A DNA stretch of 64,000 nt from Arthrobacter mangrovi. Its GTDB lineage: Bacteria > Actinomycetota > Actinomycetes > Actinomycetales > Micrococcaceae. Location: assembly GCF_026011795.1 (NCBI RefSeq), contig NZ_BRVS01000004.1, positions 1 to 64,000 on the forward strand, written 5' to 3'. Position 1 is the first letter of the stretch, and each line of letters starts with the position of its first letter. The translations under genes were made by a program, and so were the position numbers. Positions 876 through 5,282 of this stretch are shown here, one piece after another. The notes under the pieces are model-generated. The model had not been told where the DNA came from. It ran no database searches and saw only the letters and a list, made by a program, of their open reading frames with translations.

Positions 876-1106
876 CCAGCCAGTGTGAGATAAGCCACTT
901 GTCGCGGTCAAACACGGCGTGATGATCGTTACACACAAGATATTCTGTGACGCGGGCCAACAAATCAAGTTGAAATTCTCAATTGTTTGCGTTTCCATGA
1001 AATTCGTTGCGCCGTGGAACGTCACAAACGCGGCATAGTGGAGGATCCTCCGGCGCCTGCAGCCCCAAATGGGCCGCTTCCCTTTGGAAGCGATTGTTTC
1101 CGGACA

Positions 1107-1149
1107 GGCAACTGGCCGGAACCGTTGGGGGGAGTTCCGGCCAGTTGCC
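1107..1149. repeat. 16-bp perfect hairpin, first of two tandem copies
   Basis: GGCAACTGGCCGGAAC (1107-1122) pairs perfectly with GTTCCGGCCAGTTGCC (1134-1149) around the 11-nt loop CGTTGGGGGGA. It lies downstream of the leftward peptide gene that ends at 1216 and could end its transcript, although no T-run follows. A second copy with the same loop is at 1154-1188. Confidence 0.6.
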
Positions 1150-1153
1150 CTTA

Positions 1154-1188
1154 ACTGCCCGGAACCGTTGGGGGGAGTTCCAGCCAGT
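1154..1188. repeat. Second tandem hairpin copy, imperfect stem
   Basis: Arms ACTGCCCGGAAC (1154-1165) and GTTCCAGCCAGT (1177-1188) pair with two mismatches around exactly the same 11-nt loop as the copy at 1107-1149. It begins 28 bp after the stop of the 61-residue peptide gene. The 8-bp sequence TTATGAGG is also repeated in tandem at 1192-1207, between the hairpin and that stop codon. Confidence 0.5.
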
Positions 1189-1215
1189 GGCTTATGAGGT
1201 TATGAGGATCGAGGA

Positions 1216-1401
1216 TTACTGCCAGGCGTGGTCCGCCCAGGCCGCATCCCGCGAGTAGTCGCTTCCGGTCAGGTTCCACAGGTCGCCGTCCGGTCCGTGC
1301 GAGGCGAGCCCGCCCATCTCTTCCAGGGCTTCGGTGCTGGTCTGGTCAGTAGTTTCGGACGAGCGCAGGTAGACGGCGTTGGCCGACGTGAACGGGGTCA
1401 T
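1216..1401 (-). CDS. 61-residue Ser/Thr-rich peptide, candidate substrate of the SpaB_C enzyme
   Basis: I do not recognise a family. The peptide has 14 Ser/Thr among 61 residues, no Cys, no signal peptide, an acidic middle (TEALEEMGG), a flexible GLASHGPDGD stretch and a Trp-bearing tail (RDAAWADHAWQ; Trp at 42, 55 and 60). Its ATG overlaps the TGA of the SpaB_C gene (ATGA), with GGAGA upstream, so the two are translated together. The coupling, small size and Ser/Thr content make it a plausible modified-peptide precursor, but no known class leader motif (such as FNLD) is present and no Cys is available for lanthionine rings. The ending AAW..HAWQ resembles the AAWDW tail of the secreted peptide at 2466-2600. 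The substrate role is inference. Confidence 0.6.
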   Translation of the reverse strand: MTPFTSANAVYLRSSETTDQTSTEALEEMGGLASHGPDGDLWNLTGSDYSRDAAWADHAWQ

Positions 1402-2369
1402 CTTCTTCTCTTCTCCAACAGAGCGGATTCAGTATCAGGCGTCCACGCGCGGGCGTAGATTCCCAAGGCTGCTTCTTCCCACATCGTGAAGCCAAGCCGG
1501 TTCATCATGTAGTGCGACTGGCTGAACATCAGGTTCTGGGCGCTGCGGCTTACCCGTGACTTGTCAGCCCGGTAAAGGTAAGCATCGATTGCCCGCTTCC
1601 AGCGACGGCGCCAGTTCTGCACTGAACCTTCGGCTGCTGTCGCTGCCATCAGCCGGTGCATCGGGGCCGTCCTCGGGGCAAGACTGGCCGCCAGGCCGGC
1701 GCGCGCCTTTGCAGCACCGCGCCCAAGCTCCAACGTCGAGACCCTCAAGTGGTTGTCCCAGCAGTAGTTCCAGGACAGCCTGCGCCGGTCCGGCCACTGG
1801 GCGGACTTCGGACCATTCATCATCGCCCAGGCAGCGTCCGAGAGCAGCAGCGCTCCCAGGGCCGTCCGCCCCTGCGACTTGCTGAAGCGTCCAACCGCCC
1901 AGCTCGCCAATTCAGATGAAAGCTCGAAGACCTCCTCTGCCAGGACCAGGCCGTCGGCTCCGCCGAACCTGTCCAGCTCCGATTCGTGAACCATCGACAC
2001 CGGCTCGGGCCCGAGAAGGCCGGCCAGGTCCTCACAGTTTGGAGGCAGTACGTAGTTCTGCTGGATCCTGGCCGTAGGCACGGCTTCAAGGAGCCGGCCC
2101 CGGGCCGCCAACTCAAACCTCTGGAGGCTATCGAGGACTGAGCGGTGGCCCAGGAACCGGACCTTTATGTGAGGCCCCACCTCGTCAACATGATGACCGA
2201 AGTACCAGCGGCCCACGCCTTCGCGGCGAGCGTGGGCCACCAGCGGCGTAACCAGTTCTCCTATGACGGCTTCGGCTACGTCCTGTCTACCCGTGTATAT
2301 AGACAGGACCCACCAGTATGATTTGAGACTGAGCGTTTCCGAGGTGCGGATGGCTGTCAGCTGGCTCAT
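1398..2369 (-). CDS. Stand-alone SpaB_C / thiopeptide-type bacteriocin biosynthesis protein
   Basis: A 323-residue protein of the lantibiotic-dehydratase C-terminal (SpaB_C, PF14028-type) family. In full-length LanB enzymes this domain eliminates glutamate to make dehydroamino acids; as a separate protein it also occurs as the thiopeptide cyclase or with split dehydratases. Family-typical features are the start YWWVLSIYTG (about residues 18-27), RWYFGHHVDEVGPHIKVRFLG around residues 54-74 (the wFFiRY..pgpHLRlR block), and the C-terminal sequence FSQSHYMMNRLGFTMWEE. No glutamylation-domain protein is encoded nearby. The ATG at 2367-2369 follows AAGGAGA. The gene sits 96 bp downstream of a secreted-peptide gene and overlaps a 61-residue peptide gene, suggesting one operon that makes or modifies a small peptide. 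Exact chemistry is unknown. Confidence 0.82.
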   Translation of the reverse strand: MSQLTAIRTSETLSLKSYWWVLSIYTGRQDVAEAVIGELVTPLVAHARREGVGRWYFGHHVDEVGPHIKVRFLGHRSVLDSLQRFELAARGRLLEAVPTARIQQNYVLPPNCEDLAGLLGPEPVSMVHESELDRFGGADGLVLAEEVFELSSELASWAVGRFSKSQGRTALGALLLSDAAWAMMNGPKSAQWPDRRRLSWNYCWDNHLRVSTLELGRGAAKARAGLAASLAPRTAPMHRLMAATAAEGSVQNWRRRWKRAIDAYLYRADKSRVSRSAQNLMFSQSHYMMNRLGFTMWEEAALGIYARAWTPDTESALLEKRRR

Positions 2370-2465
2370 GCGCTTCTCCTTGGTTAGCTCGCTGGTGGTT
2401 GGGGAGGAATAGCCTGGCCGTCCTGGTTACAGGATCAGCTTCATGCTTGGGGATGGGGCGGCTTT

Positions 2466-2600
2466 TTACCAGTCCCAGGCTGCGACCGGTGTGCTGTTGG
2501 GCTTGGGCCCTTGCTCGGCTACCACTGCAGGAGTGGCTGCCGAGATCGCACCGAAGGCAACCAGCAGACCTGCCGTGATGCTGGCGATCCTCTTGAACAT
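2466..2600 (-). CDS. 44-residue exported peptide
   Basis: A small secreted peptide. The ATG at 2598-2600 follows a good AAAGGGGAA ribosome site, which favours it over a longer upstream reading. MFKR plus a hydrophobic core (IASITAGLLVAFGAISAA) and TPAVVA form a Sec signal peptide; cleavage after VVA would release EQGPKPNSTPVAAWDW, 16 residues. There is no Cys. It is first in a leftward set with the SpaB_C gene and the 61-residue peptide, and diverges from a TrmB/LuxR-type regulator at 2902. That arrangement fits an exported signal or a product of the locus. I recognise no named family. The direct repeat of an AAW motif in both peptides is visible; a shared function is inference. Confidence 0.62.
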   Translation of the reverse strand: MFKRIASITAGLLVAFGAISAATPAVVAEQGPKPNSTPVAAWDW

Positions 2601-2633
2601 GTCATTCCCCTTTTGGGTGTGAGTGGCAAACCA

Positions 2634-2651
2634 TCGGGGAATGCCCCCCGA
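2634..2651. promoter_or_regulatory. GC-rich dyad upstream of the secreted-peptide gene
   Basis: TCGGGG (2634-2639) and CCCCGA (2646-2651) form a 6-bp inverted repeat 34 bp upstream of the peptide start. It could be a leader hairpin or an operator. No convincing -10/-35 pair was found for the leftward transcript. Confidence 0.25.
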
Positions 2652-2788
2652 CAACTTCAAGAGTTCCGTGTCAGCCCGGGCGGTGTCCAGCCGGAGGAGG
2701 GGCAGGAACCGGACATGCACACATTGGGACAGGCGCCAACGGGTGTCCGCTTGATGCCATCCGGGGCCGGCCCGGAAGTCGCCTGAGA

Positions 2789-2817
2789 TTCCAAGGTTTT
2801 AGCGCCAAAGGTATGAT
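2789..2817 (+). promoter_or_regulatory. Candidate promoter of the TrmB/LuxR-type regulator
   Basis: TATGAT at 2812-2817 is a five-of-six match to a -10 box, with a weak TTCCAA at 2789-2794, 17 bp upstream. It would give a leader of about 78 nt before the ATG at 2902. The rest of 2601-2900 holds no gene. Confidence 0.3.
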
Positions 2818-2901
2818 TTGAACGTGCCTACTTAAACCGATTGGCAACAACCGGACATGGCATTTACTTACTAGTCTCAAAACCAGCCGAGGGGGCAGCG
2901 G

Positions 2902-3873
2902 ATGCTGAGCGGCACAGCCTTCGAACTGTACGAACATGCCGTAGCCAATCCGGAGTGGACGAAAGAGTCCGCTTCCACGGCGTTGGGCTACACGATACGC
3001 GACCTCAACGCCGCGATCGCGGAACTCGTGACCCGCAAGCTTCTGCAGCAGCCGGCACCGCATGTCGAGGCCTACATCGCCATCCCGCCGGACGTCGCGC
3101 TCTCCCAGCTGGTGGACGCGGACGAGAGGCTGCTGATCGACCTGCGGGCCAAGATCAGCGCGCACCGCAGCGATATGGCCACCTTGGTCCCCTCCTACCT
3201 CGCGGCCCGGAAGAACGTCGGCCTTGATTCGACGGTCGAAGTGCTGGAGGACCCCGGAGTCATCCGCAAGCTGCTGATCGACTACGGCCGCGACGTCAGC
3301 GAGCAGGTTCTGATCAGCCAGCCGGGCACAGGCTCTACCGCGGAAGTGCACGAGGAGAGCATCCAGAAGGACCTGGAACTGCTCGATCGCGGCGTCGTCC
3401 GCAAGAACCTCTACAGCAACAGCACCCTGGACCATGTGCCGACGCGCAAAGCCGTGGCCGCAACAGCTCCGGCCGGGCTCGAGTACCGGACCCTGCCGTA
3501 CGTTCCGCTGAAGGTGCTGATCTTCGACCGGAACCTGGCCCTCGTGGCTCGCCAGCTTTACCCCGACGACCGCGGGGCGCTCGTGGTGCGCGACCCGAAG
3601 CTCATCCACGTCTTCACCCACCTGTTCAATGTGGCATGGGAGCTGGCTACGCCCTACAACGCGGACGAGGCAGGCAACACCGCCCAGCTGAACAGCGTCC
3701 AGCAGTCCATCCTGCGGGGCATGGCGGCCGGCCACTCCGATGAAGTGATCGCCCGACGGCTCGACATCAGCGTCCGGACCTGCCGCCGGCACATCGCCTG
3801 GATGCTGGAGCAGCTCGGCGCCGAAAGCCGCTTCCAGGCGGCACTCAAGGCCAAGGACGCTGGCTGGCTCTGA
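2902..3873 (+). CDS. Transcriptional regulator with TrmB-like N-terminus and LuxR-type HTH
   Basis: A 323-residue DNA-binding protein. The N-terminus (about 1-70: LYEHAVANPEWTKESASTAL through LVTRKLLQQ) looks like a TrmB-type winged helix. The middle lacks any recognisable PAS, GAF or autoinducer domain. The C-terminus (about 255-315: QSILRGMAAGHSDEVIARRL then VRTCRRHIAWMLEQLG) is a GerE/LuxR helix-turn-helix, ending in GWL. The ATG follows GAGGGGG at normal spacing. It is transcribed away from the secreted-peptide/SpaB_C genes with a 301-bp gap, so it probably controls them. Such one-component regulators occur widely in actinobacteria beside small peptide and natural-product loci. Its ligand is unknown. 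Confidence 0.8.
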   Translation: MLSGTAFELYEHAVANPEWTKESASTALGYTIRDLNAAIAELVTRKLLQQPAPHVEAYIAIPPDVALSQLVDADERLLIDLRAKISAHRSDMATLVPSYLAARKNVGLDSTVEVLEDPGVIRKLLIDYGRDVSEQVLISQPGTGSTAEVHEESIQKDLELLDRGVVRKNLYSNSTLDHVPTRKAVAATAPAGLEYRTLPYVPLKVLIFDRNLALVARQLYPDDRGALVVRDPKLIHVFTHLFNVAWELATPYNADEAGNTAQLNSVQQSILRGMAAGHSDEVIARRLDISVRTCRRHIAWMLEQLGAESRFQAALKAKDAGWL

Positions 3874-3940: not shown

Positions 3941-3978
3941 TTGCATGGAAAGCAACACCGCGGGTTATCCTGTGTGAG
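3941..3978 (+). promoter_or_regulatory. Promoter giving a probable leaderless transcript
   Basis: TTGCAT (3941-3946) and TATCCT (3966-3971) are separated by 19 bp. The GTG start at 3978 is seven bases past the -10 box, where transcription would begin, and there is no ribosome site before it. Leaderless mRNAs with GTG starts are common in actinobacteria. Confidence 0.5.
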
Positions 3979-5282
3979 TGACAGCACACCAGCCGACCGC
4001 GCCCGCCGACCTTTCCACCGAGACCGAGGTCGCCCTGGAGCGCGCCGCGACCTCCCACCGCCACCATGAACTGTTTTCCGCGCGGGCGTCCAAGATCAAG
4101 CAGTCCGCAGTCCGCGACGTCTTCGACATCTCGCTGCGGCCCGGGCTGGTCTCGCTGGCCGGGGGCAACCCGTTCCTGCAGTCGCTGCCGCTGGAAAAGA
4201 TCGGCGGGATGGCCTACAAGCTCGTGACCGAACACGGGCTCACCGCGCTGCAGTACGGCGGCGGCCAAGGCATGGAAAAGCTGCGGGAACAGATCTGCGA
4301 GGTCATGGCCGAGGAAGGCATCACCGATGCCGACCCGGGGAACGTCGTCGTTACCGTAGGTTCCCAGAGCGCGCAGGACGTGGCCTGCAAGGTGTTCTGC
4401 AATCCCGGGGACACGGTCCTGTGCGAAGATCCAACCTACGTCGGGGCACTGAATACCTTCGAAGCCTATGAGGTCAACGTCGAAGCCGTCGCCATGGACG
4501 ACCGCGGGCTTGTTCCGGACGAACTCCGGCGGCGCATCGCCGAGGTCCGCTCCGCGGGCGGCAACATCAAGTTCCTCTACACGATCCCCAACTTCAACAA
4601 TCCCTCGGGCATCACGCTGGCGGCCGAACGGCGCGAGGAGATCGTGCGGATCTGCCAGCAAGCGAACATCCTGATCATCGAGGACAACCCCTACGGGCTG
4701 CTGCGCTTCGACGGCCAGCCGATTCCGCCCCTCAGGGCGGGGCATCCAGCGGACGTAATCTACATGGGCTCGTTCTCCAAGATCCTGGCGCCGGGCCTGC
4801 GGATCGGCTGGGCGCTGGTGCCGGCCCACCTGCAGCGCCGGTTCTACCTGGCCAGCGAAGCCGTCACGCTGTGCCCGCCCACTCTGAACCAGATGCTGGT
4901 GTCGGAGTACCTGGACGGCCACGACTGGCGGGGCCAGATCACCAACTACCGCGACCTCTATGCGGAACGCTGCCTCGCCATGCTTTCCGCGCTGGAGGAA
5001 TACATGCCGCCGGGGGTCACGTGGACGCGCCCCGAGGGCGGTTTCTTCGTCTGGGTGACGCTGCCGCCGGGGATCGACACGTACCCGCTGCTCCACCGCG
5101 CCATCGACGCCGGAGTCGTCTTCATCCCGGGGGCCGCCTTCACGCCATCCGACGAGCCGTCCAACCGGCTCCGGCTGGCCTTCAGCGCCGTGGCGGGCGA
5201 CCGGATCCGCGAGGGCGTCCGCCGGCTGGCCCCGGTCATTGCCGAGGCCATCGAGGCGGGGACAGCCGAGCGGACTGGCTAG
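3978..5282 (+). CDS. PLP-dependent aminotransferase, class I/II (2-aminoadipate/MocR-catalytic type)
   Basis: A 434-residue cytoplasmic fold-type I aminotransferase. Visible hallmarks are FDISLRPGLVSLAGGNPF near the N-terminus, the cofactor-binding GSQSAQDV, IPNFNNPSGIT, IIEDNPYGLLRF and the Schiff-base lysine in YMGSFSKILAPGLRIGW. The ending NRLRLAFSAV carries the substrate-carboxylate arginine. Sequence pattern matches the LysN/AroH-like group that transaminates 2-aminoadipate, aromatic or branched amino acids. It has no GntR domain, so it is an enzyme and not a MocR regulator. It stands alone between a regulator and a small convergent membrane gene. The GTG start is set by the adjacent -10 box. 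Confidence 0.85.
   Translation: MTAHQPTAPADLSTETEVALERAATSHRHHELFSARASKIKQSAVRDVFDISLRPGLVSLAGGNPFLQSLPLEKIGGMAYKLVTEHGLTALQYGGGQGMEKLREQICEVMAEEGITDADPGNVVVTVGSQSAQDVACKVFCNPGDTVLCEDPTYVGALNTFEAYEVNVEAVAMDDRGLVPDELRRRIAEVRSAGGNIKFLYTIPNFNNPSGITLAAERREEIVRICQQANILIIEDNPYGLLRFDGQPIPPLRAGHPADVIYMGSFSKILAPGLRIGWALVPAHLQRRFYLASEAVTLCPPTLNQMLVSEYLDGHDWRGQITNYRDLYAERCLAMLSALEEYMPPGVTWTRPEGGFFVWVTLPPGIDTYPLLHRAIDAGVVFIPGAAFTPSDEPSNRLRLAFSAVAGDRIREGVRRLAPVIAEAIEAGTAERTG

Follow-up and report, generated by a model that had tools for sequence, protein, structure and literature searches.

The 64,000-nucleotide stretch of Arthrobacter mangrovi DNA analysed here (contig NZ_BRVS01000004.1, positions 1 to 64,000; hereafter the window) begins with a 2.7-kb module of four genes, which encode a 44-residue peptide, a stand-alone SpaB_C enzyme, a 61-residue peptide or small protein (the 61-mer) and a divergent regulator. 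Transcription on the minus strand runs from the peptide gene through the SpaB_C gene to the 61-codon gene, and the regulator gene lies on the plus strand with its start 301 bp from that of the peptide gene (Table 1). The first-pass annotation of this DNA had proposed these four parts as a set; all four reading frames are present within positions 1216-3873, and we found that the set recurs as a unit in related genomes. Fetched loci and genomes are denoted below by L and G numbers, respectively.

Table 1. Features of the module and its surroundings in window coordinates, with the basis of each assignment.
Feature	Position	Strand	Basis
Upstream W[DEG]W-family peptide, 44 residues, C-terminal AAWDW; proposed pheromone	2466..2600	-	ATG-start form, homologues, co-occurrence, dN/dS 0.31
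Stand-alone SpaB_C (Lant_dehydr_C) enzyme, 323 residues	1398..2369	-	open reading frame, Pfam/NCBIfam matches
61-residue peptide/small protein, translationally coupled, C-terminal YxRDAAWADxxWx; proposed substrate	1216..1401	-	open reading frame, profile, dN/dS
Divergent regulator, 323 residues, C-terminal LuxR-type helix-turn-helix, central domain weakly TrmB/DUF7436-like	2902..3873	+	GerE match
Distal operator-like palindrome CCGGACATGGCA	2851..2862		weight matrix, 24.4 bits, highest score of the 64-kb window
Proximal operator-like palindrome CCGGACATGC, 142 bp from distal	2709..2718		weight matrix, 14.8 bits
Two hairpins with CCCCCC loops, 3' of the 61-mer gene; membership uncertain	1104..1192	-	C5-C8-loop hairpins at the same place in 18 of 56 distinct loci
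Aminotransferase, neighbour, not counted in the module	3978..5282	+	orthologue stands without the module elsewhere

The SpaB_C protein matched PF14028 with 84.9 bits (cut-off 24.4; E 1.3e-23) and, just above the cut-off, NCBIfam TIGR03891 (52 against 48.45 bits). Its closest named record, from Arthrobacter crystallopoietes BAB-32, is 93% identical. A sequence-only PDB search with the SpaB_C profile reached MibB at E 4e-4, and a phmmer search with L040 gave no match. The regulator had been described as TrmB/LuxR-type, of which the LuxR part stands: its GerE helix-turn-helix (HTH) scored 36 bits against a cut-off of 23.5 (E 5.3e-9), and GerE matched all 19 regulator homologues in a Pfam scan. 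Regulator_TrmB, in contrast, remained below its cut-off on the window protein (15.2 against 22.2 bits) and reached E<=0.01 in 5 of the 19; other HTH models and weak TrmB/DUF7436 similarities were also matched among the homologues.

For the upstream peptide, a mechanical list of open reading frames (ORFs) gives 84 residues from a GTG at 2720. The 44-residue form begins at an internal ATG preceded by AAAAGGGGA, a ribosome-binding-site-like word, and relatives align from that ATG onward. It has a hydrophobic N-terminus, ends in AAWDW and has DUF2613, below its cut-off, as its sole Pfam match. The 61-mer ORF and the SpaB_C stop share 4 nt (ATGA). No Pfam or NCBIfam family was matched by the window's copy, and its homologues matched only unrelated families, at E above 0.04.

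Recurrence of the four-gene unit

Within the genus, SpaB_C turned up in all 10 genomes searched, that of the window among them; at E<=0.001 the family yielded it in 87 of 395 genomes. A profile of the 61-mer matched 80 of these 395 genomes, once each, and comparison of the two lists placed all 80 among the 87. Class-wide, the 61-mer was found in 2 of 394 genomes, the window's own and one other of the same family. Strong regulator matches (E below 1e-40) occurred in 18 genomes of a 99-genome sample, all among the 19 with SpaB_C below 1e-50; the nineteenth, G014, gave no regulator match.

Co-occurrence was then scored on 92 distinct SpaB_C entries from fetched loci, either genes or large pieces of genes. 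The 61 SpaB_C genes followed by the 61-mer motif RDA[AV]WA were taken as core loci, and the peptide was scored as a W[DEG]W ORF with a ribosome-binding-site-like word no more than 300 nt upstream of SpaB_C. The scan found such an ORF in 59 core loci; in the other two, L036 and L104, longer peptides of six and four units overran it, which brings the total to 61 of 61. The motif is missing from 31 entries. One of them, L141, is a fragment of a broken copy that has the peptide; by the same test the other 30 have none. Random 300-nt stretches of the same loci were positive in 2 of 2035 cases. In 56 of the 61 core loci the divergent regulator is no more than 1.1 kb away; it is displaced in the remaining five (L066, L103, L109, L132 and L178). 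The corresponding genomes (G186, G124, G343, G365 and G337) each have a single regulator match about 9-12 kb from SpaB_C; in three relatives it is adjacent, and exactly one match at E<=1e-20 was found in all eight genomes. The DNA that intervenes in L177 is a sugar-catabolism island with genes for a GntP permease, dihydroxyacetone kinase and triosephosphate isomerase. These counts confirm that the four parts form a real recurring unit, beyond chance. The small ORFs, whose conservation in relatives had been named as a check, are conserved by both measures, profile and W[DEG]W ORF. "Self-contained", the earlier description of the set, has to be qualified by the five loci with a distant regulator.

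Peptides, enzyme and operator-like sites

The upstream peptides are diverse around a constant core. We compared 47 distinct sequences with start codons chosen by rule, judging signal-like status by inspection and by the best 12-residue Kyte-Doolittle mean. W[DEG]W is present in 46; the exception, from Haematomicrobium, has YDW instead. A hydrophobic N-terminus (best mean 2.05-3.0) followed by a short tail characterizes 35 of the 47, and 25 carry two to six W[DEG]W units, such as ASWDWPK twice or GVWDWPQQ six times. The hydrophobic stretch is absent from 12 (mean at most 0.53, or sequence too short for a score), ten of which are bare 7-17-mers, for example MKSWDWF of A. zhaoxinii, MTKVWDWI and MKKATAPVSIKSWEWF. 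Words such as AAGGGGG or GAGGGGA precede these bare ORFs, and in six sequences compared for the 7-codon ORF the sole variation was a synonymous GAT/GAC change. On a FastTree phylogeny of 70 SpaB_C proteins, from which copies shorter than 290 residues or with a match starting after residue 3 were excluded, the 18 leaderless loci and 12 paralogues that lack the peptide fall together (node 0.939), nested among lineages with the signal (0.991). A single loss of the signal from signal-bearing ancestors would be the simplest reading, which is not proven; the node of the leaderless group itself is poorly supported (0.257).

In the 61-mer, conservation is strong at the C-terminus, YxRDAAWADxxWx. All 52 distinct sequences have Trp as their last-but-one residue, and all have it at position -7 as well, a Trp contained in the motif used for selection. 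Outside the window's own clade, its N-terminal half is conserved and protein-like. Both window peptides lack Cys, as the first reading had it, and both contain Ser and Thr. Within the last 20 residues of the 52 sequences, Ser occurs in 31, Thr in 7 and Cys in 3, none of them conserved, and the usual LanB chemistry therefore has no conserved target here. Pooled Nei-Gojobori ratios of nonsynonymous to synonymous change (dN/dS), calculated per clade, were 0.23 (crystallopoietes), 0.14 (agilis) and 0.07 (zhaoxinii, zg-Y) for the 61-mer, compared with 0.18 (crystallopoietes) and 0.10 (agilis) for SpaB_C. For the upstream peptide the crystallopoietes value was 0.31, and the last 27 codons gave 0.18 in the agilis clade. 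Both small peptides are under purifying selection.

A glutamylating partner for SpaB_C had been reported as missing, and this holds for the whole assembly of the window: PF04738 (Lant_dehydr_N) gave no match, a search that a very divergent version would escape. Nor was the same family found in any of the 28 61-mer-bearing genomes searched. No glutamylating LanB stands beside a core-family SpaB_C, and so this arrangement, which the first-pass annotation had named as one that would defeat the system idea, does not refute it. Among the 32 genomes searched, PF04738 appeared only in G014 (over the cut-off) and G030 (below it), where SpaB_C is 36-37% identical. Some Arthrobacter of the zhaoxinii/gandavensis/citreus group carry up to five SpaB_C matches per genome, some in tandem and most without small peptides (L075-L078, L119-L121, L134-L142); beside the paralogues of the leaderless clade, a consistent small ORF was not found. 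Near the SpaB_C C-terminus, a His that most members have a few residues before a conserved NR is Gln in L031 and L032 (A. sp. H14 and A. castelli), which keep the peptides, and this His may be dispensable.

Starting from CATGTC-like words, an iterative weight matrix settled on a palindrome whose core is GGACATGTC. Exactly two places above 13 bits were found in 54 of the 56 distinct regulator-peptide intergenic regions, the same regions from which the matrix was derived; their spacing is 106-152 bp, with 141 the commonest value. Across the 64-kb window, 13 bits is exceeded at 2709-2718 and 2851-2862 and nowhere else. Each of five held-out promoters from the displaced-regulator clade also has, ahead of its peptide gene, two sites that score 18.0-24.4 bits with a spacing of 129-130 bp. 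In L177 and L178, the held-out stretches that reach the regulator, no further place exceeds 17 bits.

A candidate peptide-pheromone circuit and its alternatives

We favour, with a probability of about 0.42, a peptide-pheromone circuit with a modified-peptide output. The regulator would bind the operator-like palindromes, and a W[DEG]W peptide, released or imported, would be its ligand, which supposes export and re-entry; peptide binding would switch the operon on in a positive loop. Candidate signal sequences are of the SWDWPK type, the AAWDW type and EQGPKPNSTPVAAWDW. The target of SpaB_C, whose fold is that of LanB elimination domains and thiopeptide cyclases, would be the 61-mer translated with it. 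The reaction would be something other than Ser/Thr dehydration and would most likely take place at the conserved C-terminal YxRDAAWADxxWx. The minimal peptide-signal or modified-peptide system of the first-pass annotation is thereby partly supported. Somewhat unlikely, in our judgement, is the fuller version in which a Sec-exported, sometimes tandem W[DEG]W pheromone, reduced to a bare 7-mer in one clade, is sensed by the LuxR-HTH protein and an orphan SpaB_C carries out a glutamate-independent reaction on a Trp-rich partner.

The layout of the proposed circuit resembles that of SHP/Rgg-controlled operons for ribosomally synthesized and post-translationally modified peptides (RiPPs) and of the leaderless SIP/RopB pair, with unrelated proteins. 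In streptococci, according to PMC13361665, an Rgg regulator and a small SHP peptide, divergent in some groups, control operons for RiPPs made by radical S-adenosylmethionine (SAM) enzymes (RaS-RiPPs: streptide, tryglysin). The module likewise combines a regulator and a small peptide with an operon for a putative peptide-modifying enzyme and another small peptide, and the pairing looked for in Rgg/RRNPP systems is found, with a peptide gene in 61 of 61 core loci and the regulator adjacent and divergent in 56. Its regulator, however, is a LuxR-HTH protein and not an Rgg, with no Rgg/TPR-type domain matched; its enzyme is SpaB_C, and no radical SAM family was matched by the four module proteins. 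The module also lacks an exporter, its W[DEG]W peptide has a Sec-like leader or none, and it occurs in Arthrobacter rather than Streptococcus. Leaderless communication peptides of 8-10 residues, divergent from their own regulator, are described in the same paper, and the RopB/SIP leaderless signal peptide in PMC6565748. The shortest peptide genes here are similarly about 7-10 codons long and divergent from the regulator, but the regulator is unrelated to RopB, an enzyme is attached, and the leaderless forms appear to be derived from signal-bearing ancestors.

On the enzyme side, the SpaB_C/Lant_dehydr_C domain is shared with split LanB, the class I lanthipeptide dehydratase, from which the module differs in having no glutamylation subunit found by PF04738 and no conserved Ser/Thr/Cys substrate residues. 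The fold and stand-alone size are shared with the thiopeptide [4+2] pyridine synthases TbtD, PbtD and TsrL. In contrast to these, no LanB-type dehydratase was found in the window's genome by PF04738 and there is no Ser/Cys-rich core, and thus no dehydroalanine pair to cyclise. PEARLs, as presented in PMC11117183, are an orphan LanB half that acts on a peptide scaffold; they keep the glutamylation-like half without the elimination domain, of which the module is the mirror image. A description of the module was not found in openly licensed PMC papers.

Several observations weigh against the pheromone circuit. No importer, exporter or maturation protease lies within the module, and the bare 7-mer, which has no secretion signal, could work intracellularly. 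The regulator has no recognised peptide-binding domain; in the Pfam scan of its 19 homologues no TPR-type (Rgg-like) family reached E<=0.01. In the window's own crystallopoietes clade, the last 16 codons of the upstream peptide are weakly constrained (dN/dS 0.64). The 61-mer is conserved C-terminally and variable N-terminally, with a mean pairwise identity of 0.71 in columns 53-67 versus 0.32 in columns 1-38 of a 17-row alignment; many RiPP precursors show the opposite polarity. SpaB_C is able to occur outside the module context, since 30 SpaB_C genes have no such peptide. As for the palindromes, the count of 54 in 56 is in-sample, the pair is missing from the other two regions (one site in L127, none above 13 bits in L128), and the held-out promoters, being closely related to the training ones, amount to a partial out-of-sample test. 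Because the displaced-regulator loci keep the pair upstream of the peptide gene, both sites stay with the peptide promoter rather than with the regulator gene, so that autoregulation of the regulator gene does not follow from them. A looser pattern matched 19 places genome-wide versus 13 in the control, so that site specificity is not proven by that test; it gave no clear further target for a regulon beyond the locus.

The alternatives differ mainly in the role given to the W[DEG]W peptide. It could itself be the SpaB_C substrate, modified at its Trp-rich end before or after export to yield a modified pheromone or small natural product, with the 61-mer as an accessory carrier, chaperone or recognition protein. 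The core common to 46 of 47 peptides, bare MKSWDWF included, would suit this, as would the repeated units of L036 and L104, which resemble multiple product copies, and the protein-like N-terminal half that the 61-mer has outside the window's clade. A Sec-type signal peptide would nevertheless be unusual on the substrate of a cytoplasmic enzyme, and in the window's clade SpaB_C is coupled by the 4-nt overlap to the 61-mer instead; we regard this explanation as unlikely. More improbable still is an antimicrobial or surface peptide that is secreted, has the 61-mer as its immunity protein or partner and is controlled by a LuxR-HTH regulator that senses a small molecule, without cell-to-cell signalling. 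Signal-like peptides with repeated units and the unrecognised central domain of the regulator are compatible with it, but leaderless 7-17-residue forms exist, one divergent regulator is retained with the module, and the operator-like sites in the window are confined to the module.

Two further explanations have very little probability. The upstream ORF might be just a Trp-sensing leader peptide for the SpaB_C gene, as its two near-adjacent Trp codons, its closeness to SpaB_C and the very short ORFs of one clade would allow; folding is strong in some of the spacers (z -4.0 in L036, -3.7 in L128 and -3.4 in L104), and in L128 a perfect palindrome containing a T run follows the peptide ORF. Across the 60 distinct spacers, however, a run of at least five T occurs in only 2, and mean folding is z -1.07 versus mononucleotide shuffles, which makes a terminator-type Trp attenuator unlikely; signal-like N-termini (35 of 47) and repeats (25 of 47) also speak against such a leader. 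Least probable, by a little, is a degenerate split LanB that dehydrates with a glutamylating partner encoded elsewhere in the genome. The outgroup locus L038 does have a PF04738 neighbour, a weak PF04738 match adjoins the SpaB_C of G030 (L039), and the window's 61-mer has Ser and Thr near its end; against this stand the 0 of 28 module genomes with PF04738 and the lack of Ser/Thr conservation at the 61-mer C-terminus.

If the pheromone circuit is real, Arthrobacter and its relatives gain a system for peptide signalling that carries its own modifying enzyme, and the module offers a natural test of what SpaB_C can do without glutamylation. A secreted peptide would also have shrunk to a leaderless heptapeptide gene, which bears on minimal functional gene size and on the origin of leaderless signals. 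New here are the operator-like palindrome pair in the peptide promoter and the range of peptide forms, from signal-like with one to six units to a bare 7-17-mer in one clade.

Chromosomal setting and minor observations

An aminotransferase gene stands on the regulator's side in 21 of 21 representative loci. The gap is mostly 46-126 nt, with 236-238 nt in L035, L036 and L104 and 1.6-2.2 kb in L088, L089 and L128. Branched-chain keto-acid dehydrogenase genes often come next (E2 gene in 17 of 21). We rejected the aminotransferase and the dehydrogenase as module members, because all 12 fetched genomes that lack the 61-mer (L156-L167) have the aminotransferase orthologue but not the module, with E2 in 5 of the 12 stretches. 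Of this set, G030 has an outgroup SpaB_C elsewhere in its genome; the Haematomicrobium-type locus L168 was not counted. Some aminotransferase match was present in 98 of 99 relatives. The module thus as a rule sits at one fixed place on the chromosome, and the neighbouring aminotransferase gives no evidence of its function. Other candidate affiliations were likewise rejected: PADLOC gave no defence-system match for any of the four module proteins, PHROGs gave just a weak sigma-like match to the regulator HTH (E 0.0012), and the search for plasmid relatives yielded a single distant match, from Anoxybacillus, at 19.7% identity.

Directly 3' of the 61-mer gene, the minus-strand transcript contains two hairpins with the loop UCCCCCCA. 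Their 21-nt core has no other genomic match with up to one mismatch. Hairpins with C5-C8 loops occur at the same position in 18 of 56 distinct loci, in three groups whose stem sequences are unrelated, and are missing from the other 38. The loop is complementary to the GGGGA/GGGA words that precede the peptide genes of those loci. The hairpins are possibly a regulatory RNA with C-rich loops or an unusual terminator. No known RNA family scored over its gathering score; matches below E 1 were mir-187 (elsewhere) and the alphaproteobacterial ar14, at 19.6 of 58.8 bits.

Haematomicrobium sanguinis (L128) has a divergent version of the module, with SpaB_C 42% and regulator 30% identical and a possible peptide ending in YDWPTVA; it has neither the 61-mer motif nor the operator pair, and its perfect palindrome lies after the peptide ORF. 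An Arthrobacter-type module is also present on a contig titled Vibrio cholerae 35D (L129), a record that is probably mislabelled or contaminated. Arthrobacter sp. UMCV2 carries the module (L108). PMC9659744 reports eleven LuxR-HTH genes in this strain, eight of them induced, along with swarming, by a strain-emitted amine; the module regulator may or may not be one of the strain's airR genes. In Arthrobacter castelli, tandem glycine riboswitch aptamers lie near the module (L089, 10743-10943).

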